A stretch of 64,000 nt of DNA from Alphaproteobacteria bacterium (GTDB lineage Bacteria; Pseudomonadota; Alphaproteobacteria; Micavibrionales; Micavibrionaceae): NCBI GenBank assembly GCA_030424975.1, contig JAUHVY010000002.1:682001-746000 (forward strand). Reading direction: 5' to 3'. Shown piece after piece: positions 31,947 to 35,694 of this stretch; the stretch's first letter is position 1; each line of letters starts with the position of its first letter. Both the position numbers and the translations under genes were made by a program. The notes beneath the pieces were generated by a model. The model was not told the DNA's origin, did no database searches, and saw only the letters and a list, made by a program, of their open reading frames with translations.

Positions 31947-33434
31947 ATGTATCTTATGAATACGTTCTCTCAGAAGCTCGATCTTCGGCAATCTCAACAA
32001 CTGGTGATGACACCTCAGTTACAACAGGCAATTAAGCTGTTGCAGCTGAATAATGTTGAGCTTGGTGAATATATTGAAGAAGAGCTTGAGAAGAATCCTC
32101 TCCTTGAAAAAGCAGATAGTAATGCAGATGGCCTGAGTGGCGCCGATGATATGCCGCAAGATACCGTTAGCGGCGATCAGGGAGCGGATGATGTTGATGC
32201 CGCATTCTCTGCACAGATCTCAGAAGGGGAAAGCAGAGATTTTGATGCTGGGTCATCTATGGCGAATATAGGCGCGGGTGGAAATTCTAAATTTGAAAAT
32301 GCCGAAGATAGCTTCGAAAATCGAATGAGCGCGGATAAAAGCCTGCGTGAGCATTTAACGGATCAATTGCACATGGCCTTCGGTGAGGAGCGGGATCGTA
32401 TGATCGGGGCGTTTCTGATCGATCGTTTGGATGAGAGCGGTTATCTGCGTGATGATGTCGGTGACATGGCAGAGCGTTTCGGATGTTCGAATGAGCGCAT
32501 AGAAAAGCTTTTAAAGCGCATGAAGGGCTTTGACCCCACAGGTGTATTCGCGTGCGATTTGTCCGAATGCTTGGCCTTGCAATTGGATGAAAAGGGCGGT
32601 CTGGACGCGCCGATGATCGCGCTGCTTGATAATCTGCAAATGCTGGCGGATCATGATTTTAAAAAGCTGGGTGAGGTTTGCGGCGTCAATGATACCTATC
32701 TGATGGATATGGTTGAGGAGATTAAAAGCTTAAACCCGAAGCCTGCAGGCGAATTTGATCATTTGGTTGTGCAAACTGCGGTGCCGGATGTTTTGATGAA
32801 ACGTTTGCCGAAAAATCTTGGTGGTGGATGGCGCGTTGAATTGAACGCCGATACATTGCCGCGCGTGCTGGTGAATCAGGAATATTATACGCAAGTATCA
32901 CAGAGCGCGGTGAAGAAACAGGACCGCGAATATGTAACAACACAATTAAATTCAGCGAATTGGTTAGTGCGCGCACTTGATCAGCGGGCACAAACGATTC
33001 TAAAGGTTGCCAGTGAAATCGTGGAGCAGCAAGAGGCGTTCTTTAATTACGGCATTGAGTTTTTGCGTCCTCTTACGCTCAAGGATATTGCGGATGAAAT
33101 TGAAATGCACGAAAGCACCGTCAGCCGCGTTACAACAAATAAGTTTATCGGTACGCCGCGTGGTATTTTTGAATTGAAGTTCTTTTTTTCGACTGCCATC
33201 GTATCGGAAAGTGGTATGGCGCACTCATCCGAAGCGATTAAAGCCCGTATTAAAAATTTAATCGATGAGGAAGATCCGCGTAAAATTTTGTCTGATGATA
33301 AAATTGTCGATATACTGAAAGAAGAGGGAATTGACATCGCCAGAAGAACCGTTGCCAAGTATCGTGAGGCGATGCATATAGGATCATCGGTGCAACGACG
33401 AAAACAAAAGAAAAATTTAATAAATCGCGGATAG
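31947..33434 (+). CDS. rpoN: RNA polymerase sigma-54 factor
   Basis: RpoN directs RNA polymerase to -24/-12 promoters that need an enhancer-binding ATPase. The 495-residue protein has the Gln- and Leu-rich region I (LDLRQSQQLVMTPQLQQAIKLLQL, seen at about residues 8-32), an acidic region II (about 50-120), the core-binding domain, an HTH (LKDIADEIEMHESTVSRVT) and a C-terminal RpoN box (ARRTVAKYRE, about 467-476). An ATG three codons downstream of the chosen start is also possible. No enhancer-binding protein is encoded in the window. Confidence 0.95.
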   Translation: MYLMNTFSQKLDLRQSQQLVMTPQLQQAIKLLQLNNVELGEYIEEELEKNPLLEKADSNADGLSGADDMPQDTVSGDQGADDVDAAFSAQISEGESRDFDAGSSMANIGAGGNSKFENAEDSFENRMSADKSLREHLTDQLHMAFGEERDRMIGAFLIDRLDESGYLRDDVGDMAERFGCSNERIEKLLKRMKGFDPTGVFACDLSECLALQLDEKGGLDAPMIALLDNLQMLADHDFKKLGEVCGVNDTYLMDMVEEIKSLNPKPAGEFDHLVVQTAVPDVLMKRLPKNLGGGWRVELNADTLPRVLVNQEYYTQVSQSAVKKQDREYVTTQLNSANWLVRALDQRAQTILKVASEIVEQQEAFFNYGIEFLRPLTLKDIADEIEMHESTVSRVTTNKFIGTPRGIFELKFFFSTAIVSESGMAHSSEAIKARIKNLIDEEDPRKILSDDKIVDILKEEGIDIARRTVAKYREAMHIGSSVQRRKQKKNLINRG

Positions 33435-33531: not shown

Positions 33532-34131
33532 ATGGAAATGACCGTTCAAGGAAAGCAAGTTGATGTTGGCGATGCTCTAAGAGAGCATGTGACAGGTAAG
33601 ATGTCAGACATCGATCAAAAATATTTTAATCATGCGACAAATGCGACGGTGACCTTCTCTCGCGAAGGGCATGGCCATGCAATGTTCAAAGTGAATATCT
33701 CCGTGAATGTCGGTAAGAATATTCAGGTCGTAACAGAGGCCATGGAGCAAGACCCGTATGCGGCGTTCGATTTGGCATCTGAAAAAACGGCTAAACGTTT
33801 GCGCCGTTACAAGCGCCGTTTGCGTGATCACCATAACCGTGCGGAAAAGACACCGGAAGCGGAATTGATCAAGGCGCGTGCCTATACGTTGGCGCAAGAA
33901 GCACAAGAAGCCGTAGAGCAGGATAATGAAGAAGATGTTCATAAGGATCCTGCAATCATCGCTGAGATTCAAACACATATTGAAAAGATGAGTGTTTCTG
34001 AAGCGGTAATGCGTATGGAATTGGCGGATCAAAATGCGTTGATGTTCCGTAATGCGGGAAATGACAAGCTTAGTATGATCTATTTGCGTAAAGATGGTAA
34101 TGTTGGCTGGATCGAGCCGGATGAAGTATAG
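33532..34131 (+). CDS. hpf: Ribosome hibernation promoting factor, long form
   Basis: Long HPF stops translation and pairs 70S ribosomes into 100S dimers during starvation. The 199-residue product has the S30AE N-terminal domain (about 1-100; MEMTVQGKQVDVGDALREHV), a charged linker, and a C-terminal dimerisation domain (about 140-195) with MSVSEAVMRMELADQNALMFRN and IYLRKDGNVGWIEP, a typical match. It follows rpoN, as is usual, and is closed by a terminator. Confidence 0.95.
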   Translation: MEMTVQGKQVDVGDALREHVTGKMSDIDQKYFNHATNATVTFSREGHGHAMFKVNISVNVGKNIQVVTEAMEQDPYAAFDLASEKTAKRLRRYKRRLRDHHNRAEKTPEAELIKARAYTLAQEAQEAVEQDNEEDVHKDPAIIAEIQTHIEKMSVSEAVMRMELADQNALMFRNAGNDKLSMIYLRKDGNVGWIEPDEV

Positions 34132-34186: not shown

Positions 34187-34371
34187 GTCTATAATTCATG
34201 TATATTACGATATAAAAAAACACAAAAATCGCTTAAATCATTGTAAATAAATGGTTATTTGTGTGTTAGTTATTGCAAAAATAAATGAATTTTTTTCTGG
34301 ATTTTGCTATTCGCCTTATGTTACAAACCTGCGACTTGTTAAGGACAGTTGAGAAAAAGGAAGTTTGCAAG

Positions 34372-34842
34372 ATGGCTATTTCGAGGCAAATTCATTTTGA
34401 TCTATATCTCGCGCGTGTTAAGGCGCAATCCAAGCACAGAGCCTTTGAGATTTTGGCTGAGGAAGCATCGCCTCTGGCAATGACGAGCTGTGATGAGTTA
34501 ATCAATGTATTTGAAAAACGCATGTCAGAACGTAACGCGGGTGTTGGTGGCGGCGTTGCCGTGTTTGATGTGAAATCACCGTATATTCAAAAGCCGGTTA
34601 CGGCACTGGTTACGTTGGACCAGGCCGTTGAATACGGGGCGTCTGATCACGCGCCTGTTGATGTCATCGCTGCTGTTTTGTCACCTTTGTCTTTTGGGCC
34701 GAAACATTTGCAAAAATTGGCTGGTGTATCACGCTTGATGCGCTCTGATGATTTGTGCGAAGCGATGCGTGAAGCAAAAGATATTGATGCTTTACGCGTT
34801 TTGTTTATGCCTAATCAGGGGTGGATGGTCGCTGCGGCGTAA
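34372..34842 (+). CDS. PtsN-like EIIA-Ntr protein without the catalytic histidine
   Basis: The start is the ATG at 34372, which follows AAGGAAG at 8 bases; the upstream frame gives an unlikely hydrophobic lead. The 156-residue length and overall pattern fit EIIA-Ntr: SKHRAFEILAEEA, VFEKRMSERNAGVGGGVAVFDVKSP, KPVTALVTLDQAVEYGASDHAPVDVIAAVLSP, HLQKLAGVSRLMRSDDLCEAMREA. Position after rpoN-hpf is the conserved ptsN location. In active EIIA-Ntr the loop reads G(I/V)GNG(I/V)A(I/V)PH; here Pro-His is replaced by Phe65-Asp66. The protein therefore cannot be phosphorylated on that His and is either a constitutive regulator or a relic. Family assignment is by eye. Confidence 0.8.
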   Translation: MAISRQIHFDLYLARVKAQSKHRAFEILAEEASPLAMTSCDELINVFEKRMSERNAGVGGGVAVFDVKSPYIQKPVTALVTLDQAVEYGASDHAPVDVIAAVLSPLSFGPKHLQKLAGVSRLMRSDDLCEAMREAKDIDALRVLFMPNQGWMVAAA

Positions 34843-34912: not shown

Positions 34913-35155
34913 TTAATGCGTTACAACAGGTTCCAGATCGTTTTGTTTTGCCATCACCATTGCCAGCTCTTTACGTCCTGATGAATATAGTGTTTCACCA
35001 TCGGCTGAGCAGACTTCGTACGATGTGCCTAGTTTGCCTTTTACGGCTTTGACGTAGGCAATTTGTCCGACACCGAAATTGCGAAAATCCTGAACCGAAA
35101 GGCGTTTTAAAATTTGGGTGGGATTGACGTAATTTTCAAGGTTCTTCTCTGTCAT
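34913..35155 (-). CDS. DUF1150-family protein
   Basis: The 80-residue product from the ATG whose first base is 35155 (behind AGAAGG) fits the small DUF1150 family, which in alphaproteobacteria regularly follows hsp20. The visible pattern is a DFRNFGVGQIAYVKAV stretch, SYEVCSADGETL, then a helix ending in AMVMAKQNDLEPVVTH, as in that family. A 100-residue version from an upstream codon would lack family similarity. The molecular role is unknown; a link to the heat-shock chaperone is suggested by context. It begins 68 bases after the hsp20 stop. Confidence 0.85.
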   Translation of the reverse strand: MTEKNLENYVNPTQILKRLSVQDFRNFGVGQIAYVKAVKGKLGTSYEVCSADGETLYSSGRKELAMVMAKQNDLEPVVTH

Positions 35156-35223: not shown

Positions 35224-35694
35224 TCAGTCTTCGTCACTTGTGCTATCTACATCAATAGCTTGCAGCTCTTTTGTCTTTTTATTTTTCTGGTTAATCTTGA
35301 TTTTCACCGCATTTGATTCAGGAATAATGCGTTCAAGATTAATGTGCAAAAGGCCGTTATCAAGATCGGCTCCTGTAACCTCTATACCGTCGGCCAATAC
35401 AAAGTTACGCTGGAACTGACGTGCAGCGATTCCGCGATGCAGATAGATGCGCTCTTTGTCGTCTTTTTGTTTGCCGCGAATGCAAAGCTGGTTTTGGTCA
35501 ATCTCTACATCCAGATCATCCATTGAAAAACCGGCCACAGCCAAAGTAATGCGCAGGCCGCTATCTGCAATTTGTTCGATATTATAGGGGGGGTATCCAT
35601 CTGCGCCGTTTTTACGCAGGCGATCTATGGTCTTTTCAAAATCATCGAAACCCAAAAATAACGGGCTGTCGAATAGGGATAGACGTGTTGTCAT
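35224..35694 (-). CDS. Small heat-shock protein, Hsp20/IbpA family
   Basis: This ATP-independent holdase binds unfolding proteins at high temperature. The 156-residue product has the IbpA-like N-terminal LFDSPLFLGFDDFEKTIDRL, an alpha-crystallin domain (about residues 37-125) with YNIEQIADSGLRITLAVAGFS, GIAARQFQRNFVLADGIEV and the GLLHINLERIIPE strand carrying the G-x-L motif. The C-terminal I-x-I is replaced by VKIKI. AGGAG precedes the ATG. A gapped 8-bp inverted repeat lies in its upstream region. Confidence 0.92.
   Translation of the reverse strand: MTTRLSLFDSPLFLGFDDFEKTIDRLRKNGADGYPPYNIEQIADSGLRITLAVAGFSMDDLDVEIDQNQLCIRGKQKDDKERIYLHRGIAARQFQRNFVLADGIEVTGADLDNGLLHINLERIIPESNAVKIKINQKNKKTKELQAIDVDSTSDED

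Follow-up and report, generated by a model that had tools for sequence, protein, structure and literature searches.

This locus raises the question of what an EIIA-Ntr protein (PtsN) is kept for when the histidine that should carry its phosphate has become an aspartate. The earlier note on the window (the whole stretch of DNA analysed, 64,000 nucleotides) had pointed to such a replacement in a PtsN homologue encoded after rpoN and hpf, and had left two explanations side by side, i.e., a constitutive mimic of the phosphorylated state or a relic.

The ptsN gene and its active-site loop

The window ptsN starts with the ATG at 34372 and ends with the stop codon at 34840-34842; a second in-frame ATG lies upstream of this start, at 34285 (Table 1). 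By descent, its product is PtsN. PTS_EIIA_2 (PF00359) is its sole Pfam domain, scoring 48.2 bits against a curated cut-off of 27, and the gene order rpoN-hpf-ptsN is the same as in E. coli. Structure comparison of the predicted model (pLDDT 88.8) gives EIIA-Ntr proteins as the best solved relatives, with Z 21.3 and 1.7 Å over 144 residues for 1a6j. Gene order, profile score and fold thus agree with the orthology proposed earlier. The score for the NCBI PtsN equivalog TIGR01419 is 52.2 bits, below its cut-off of 138.7, and identity to E. coli PtsN is 25-28% in structure alignments. A PF00359 profile search of the source genome returned this single match, which answers the earlier question of a second ptsN in the negative.

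Asp66 corresponds to His73 of E. coli PtsN both when aligned to PDB 1a6j and in a 113-protein alignment (the PtsN proteins of 111 loci in the order, E. coli PtsN, and L102 of genome G008, a 708-aa EIIA-containing protein that is not PtsN and is excluded from the counts). The preceding residue is Phe, and the phosphorylatable His of the GxGxGxAxPH motif is missing, as the earlier note had read it. No other His is restored in the loop by the 113-protein alignment, none being present within residues 55-70 of the window protein; the nearest conserved one is His112, at the position of E. coli His120. All eight readable PtsN proteins of the window's genus have Asp at the site, so that a sequencing error is excluded.

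Table 1. Coordinates of ptsN, its elements and the neighbouring genes in the window
Feature	Position	Strand	Basis or remark
rpoN, sigma-54	31947..33434	+	domain search
hpf, ribosome hibernation factor	33532..34131	+	PF02482 + PF16321; adjoins ptsN in most of the family
Ribosome-binding-site-like AAGGAAG	34357..34363	+	sequence
ptsN, EIIA-Ntr orthologue, 156 aa	34372..34842, stop codon included	+	PF00359; fold like 1a6j
Active-site loop, residues 57-68, GVGGGVAVFDVK	34540..34575	+	sequence, alignments
Codon GAT = Asp66, place of the phosphorylated His (E. coli His73)	34567..34569	+	alignments
C-terminal Ala-Ala-Ala of PtsN	34831..34839	+	C-terminal Ala-Ala kept across the family
DUF1150 gene, downstream of ptsN	34913..35155, start approximate	-	
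Hsp20 gene, downstream of ptsN	35224..35694	-	

The gene immediately upstream of ptsN is hpf in 81 of the 113 loci. This adjacency persists in many family genomes in which rpoN is not found in the flank (some of the flanks being short), which suggests that PtsN and ribosome hibernation may be functionally connected.

The EIIA-like fold is shared, with Z about 12, by the cytoplasmic domain of Band 3 (SLC4 anion exchangers), and one of 24 family members also matches Band_3_cyto. The Band 3 domain works without phosphotransfer. However, it belongs to a eukaryotic membrane transporter, whereas the window PtsN is a free bacterial protein encoded at its ancestral locus.

The phospho-site across the family and the fate of the relay

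The order was represented by 142 genomes, 104 of which belong to the GTDB family of the window, and PF00359 matches were found in 111 of the 142. Within the family, PtsN is retained in 91 of 104 genomes and 13 gave no match. Two of the 91 proteins are fragments without the site; in the 89 readable ones the residue is His (46), Asp (31), Asn (6), Gln (2), Ser (2), Thr (1) or Ala (1), i.e., 12 of 89 have neither His nor Asp. Genome G047 of the family has His. Among the other families, f2, f4 and f6 have His in 14 of 14 PtsN proteins, f3 has Gln, f5 has two His and two Ser, and f7 has Thr. The comparison with other Alphaproteobacteria that the earlier note had suggested sets Asp in 31 of 91 family proteins beside His, with an intact loop, in 26 of 26 proteins sampled from the class outside the order, this sample being the 26 best matches to an Asp-type query among 387 genomes, 277 of which had a match.

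The context that the earlier note lacked is the family-wide absence of HPr. No match to PF00381 was found in any of the 104 family genomes, and 25 of the 142 genomes of the order have one. In the source genome (two contigs, completeness 100) the search gave nothing at E <= 10, the control genomes being positive. PtsN from HPr-bearing genomes of the order has His in 13 of 13 cases, while genomes without an HPr match have 49 His, 47 other residues and two unreadable sites; this count pools all families of the order and includes some incomplete genomes, and the Fisher tests on the tables of HPr and EI-like presence ignore ancestry and are descriptive only. An alphaproteobacterial PTS locus comprising HprK, EIIA-Man, HPr and EI is present in G123 (family f6); the intact relay and its locus are treated, for the Brucella PTS, in PMC2937029. 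At the corresponding place in G029, a member of the family, only a sensor kinase, RapZ and an EI-like protein are encoded. No EIIA-Man was found in the source genome, and EIIA-Man matches occur in six of 104 family genomes (G079, G080, G083, G014, G033 and G110) despite the absence of HPr.

The EI-like protein of the source genome (699 aa, G000:C1 376479-378578; L150 985-3084, + strand) is 31% identical to that of G029 over query residues 125-635. The catalytic positions His285 and Cys602 are retained in it, as are many residues that are invariant in the PEP-binding domain, and structure prediction gives a model (pLDDT 73) similar to Enzyme I (2hwg); neither the HPr-binding domain (PF05524) nor the mobile domain (PF00391) was detected by domain search. 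Its gene is flanked by genes that we take to be catalase-peroxidase-like and trehalose-synthesis-like. Such proteins occur in seven of the 104 family genomes, the source genome and six others (short and weak hits to the PEP-binding portion in G108 and G120, and a PF05524 match below the cut-off in G011, were dropped). In G029 and G111 the gene adjoins rapZ and a sensor kinase. It is interrupted in G078 (L136) by one in-frame stop within the match and in G086 (L137) lies in two separate pieces, which could reflect ongoing loss or assembly errors. Loss of the whole PTS was dropped as a description, given these EI-like proteins and the EIIA-Man matches. Because the catalytic His and Cys are kept, "no PTS at all" is too strong a statement; to judge from these residues, PEP-driven phosphorylation of some protein by this orphan is possible, and a possible donor counts against uncoupling. 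In the six family genomes where an EI-like protein occurs together with PtsN, the site is always Asp; a tie between Asp and the EI-like protein was set aside, since the six represent just two lineages of the tree.

Since both the phospho-acceptor His and a genomic HPr are missing, the window protein is not filed as a functional PTS EIIA; by its sequence and genome it is classed as an uncoupled EIIA-Ntr. It shares fold and length with EIIA-Ntr of E. coli and Caulobacter, and with E. coli PtsN also the rpoN-hpf-ptsN neighbourhood and the position of His112, but differs from both in having Asp in place of the phospho-acceptor and in residing in a genome without HPr.

Origins and retention of the aspartate

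In a tree of PtsN and HPF built without the site columns, the changes over the order comprise six from His to Asp, four to Asn, three each to Gln and Ser, two to Thr and one to Ala. A tree of HPF only (the 85 rows that have HPF), the topology of which cannot be biased by the site, yields seven D/H changes, and a single D clade is rejected (p-AU 4e-7). In a loop-free tree (86 rows with HPF; seven long, partial or odd rows excluded), five D/H changes are all forced by well-supported branches, and one origin is again rejected. According to these three trees, His-to-Asp arose about five to seven times, not once.

On the PtsN and HPF tree, 16 losses of the His state are counted within the family over 26 units of branch length, and 0 losses of the Asp state over 12.4 units, where 7.6 would be expected at the His rate (P 0.0005); the HPF tree gives 0 against 4.7 expected (P 0.009). 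Both P values presuppose a rate that is constant and states reconstructed by parsimony. Asp66 is also among four invariant columns of 155 in the 31 Asp proteins, but these rows were chosen by that very column, so that the loss count, rather than the invariance, is the fair test. Recurrent origin combined with zero later losses argues that Asp was selected and did not drift. Asp is over-represented relative to one-base changes of the His codon (six of 12 family events; P 0.002 to 0.0001, depending on transition bias) and relative to the BLOSUM expectation too, and none of the family PtsN proteins has Tyr, Arg, Leu or Pro at the site. Nonetheless, Asn, which is of similar size and uncharged, is also common, and the test therefore supports "small polar, Asp most often" rather than charge alone. 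The gene itself is under purifying selection, with dN/dS of 0.18 and 0.13 in the two close Asp pairs whose silent sites are not saturated and of 0.04 to 0.12 in the four closest His pairs.

Such conservation is uneven along the protein. Of the 31 Asp proteins, 10 have the Glu that corresponds to E. coli E58, vs. 41 of the 46 His proteins in the family; Gly59 is present in 20 Asp vs. 45 His proteins, and the Pro preceding the site in none vs. 28; the equivalent of E. coli G66 is often lost in Asp proteins, and the loop of PtsN is degraded in the window's genus. On the other hand, R121, L113 and G61 are present in all Asp and all His proteins, and H112 is present in 29 of 31 Asp rows vs. 33 of 46 His rows (Fisher p 0.02, a descriptive value that ignores ancestry). 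Judged from these residues, Asp proteins are losing the transfer machinery but retain the fold and part of the surface, a pattern that would fit retention for a binding role.

The last two residues of PtsN are Ala-Ala in 87 of 91 family sequences (VA in four), in 10 of 10 sequences of f6 and in most of the 26 class samples. We take this ending to resemble a C-terminal degron of the ClpXP type; if so, the amount of the protein may be the control that is left after the loss of PtsN phosphorylation.

Readings of Asp66 and their meaning

The best explanation, to which we give about an even chance, is that HPr-less PtsN has been kept for binding and that Asp66, which was selected, is probably phospho-like, the protein acting constantly. 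The window PtsN is a vertically inherited protein of a lineage without HPr and so without the normal phosphorylation route. It would have given up the role of phosphate acceptor and been retained as a binding regulator. Asp66 was fixed by selection at the phospho-site, and would keep PtsN in a state like that of phospho-EIIA-Ntr, so as to act constantly on a partner; control, if any, would be exerted through the amount of PtsN. A plausible partner, by analogy with Caulobacter, is the bifunctional SpoT/Rel. In that bacterium, EIIA-Ntr~P and the H66E variant inhibit the (p)ppGpp hydrolase of SpoT, to which they bind, whereas H66A does not bind (PMC4848567). The source genome encodes one long SpoT with HD, RelA_SpoT synthetase, TGS, RIS and ACT domains (131 of the order's 142 genomes have a RelA_SpoT match). 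The Caulobacter case and the presence of SpoT in the source genome would make SpoT the first target to examine, other partners being equally possible: PtsN has further partners in other bacteria (PMC13104625), and the phosphorylated form of PtsN is preferred in the case of Salmonella GlmS (PMC5024086). Engineered H66E (Caulobacter, PMC4848567) and H73E (Salmonella, PMC6456747) are likewise acidic at the phospho-His position, but they are laboratory-made and carry Glu, whereas the window PtsN has Asp and is natural and recurrent. No description of a natural His-to-Asp EIIA-Ntr was recognised in the open-access literature that was searched.

Several observations weigh against mimicry. Asn arose about four times compared with six for Asp, which leaves charge, over mere size, unproven as the cause; His persists in 46 HPr-less members of the family, and Asp is therefore not required. 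Given the losses at E58, G66 and the Pro, the site in Asp proteins may resemble neither the phosphorylated nor the unphosphorylated state, and H73A and H73E had similar effects on PhoP-regulated genes in Salmonella (PMC6456747), which counts against the mimicry reading. It is thus conceivable, although we hold it only tentatively, that after the loss of HPr the unphosphorylated surface does the binding and that the site takes any small polar residue, Asp being the one that fits the loop best, by hydrogen bonding or a salt bridge and without imitating phosphate. The presence of N, Q, S, T or A in 12 of 89 readable proteins and the decay of the surrounding loop in Asp lineages speak for this, as do targets of unphosphorylated PtsN elsewhere, e.g., YcgO; it accounts less readily for Asp being the commonest replacement and never lost, and for the higher retention of H112 in Asp rows, with the reservation as to ancestry given above.

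Drift in a gene decaying after loss of the relay, the relic of the earlier note, is improbable. The 13 family genomes without a PtsN match and the degraded loop of the window's genus are what it would lead one to expect, but it is contradicted by purifying selection in close pairs, by open, full-length reading frames, by a confidently predicted fold and by an Asp that originated repeatedly and was never lost. The same recurrence, retention and selection favour the note's other proposal, a constitutive regulator, over the relic; its mimicry of phospho-His is the part that we infer. Still less probable is that Asp66 is a new phospho-acceptor in the style of receiver domains, with phosphate coming from a histidine kinase or from the EI-like orphan. 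That the orphan of the source genome keeps its His and Cys positions, and that Asp is found in six of six family genomes with both proteins, would suit it, yet an EI-like match is lacking in 25 of the 31 genomes with Asp, the six fall into two tree lineages only, and HPr is absent.

The preferred reading, a phospho-like PtsN acting constantly, can be taken further, to a speculative form that we regard as possible but doubtful. The phospho-His switch would have been hard-wired repeatedly, i.e., after HPr loss, His-to-Asp would have locked EIIA-Ntr in a phospho-like state in at least five lineages, with a permanent "nitrogen-starved" output, such as a constantly restrained SpoT hydrolase, that might suit slow-growing or prey-dependent cells. 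If mimicry is true, natural evolution has arrived at the type of substitution that laboratories introduce as a phosphomimic.

The family of the window thus represents a natural, repeated experiment on EIIA-Ntr without its relay. Retention of PtsN suggests a phosphorylation-independent role worth keeping, and the related His, Asp and Asn versions make it possible to ask which conformation is useful. In these small-genome bacteria, the chain of the relay has been lost and its last protein has been kept.
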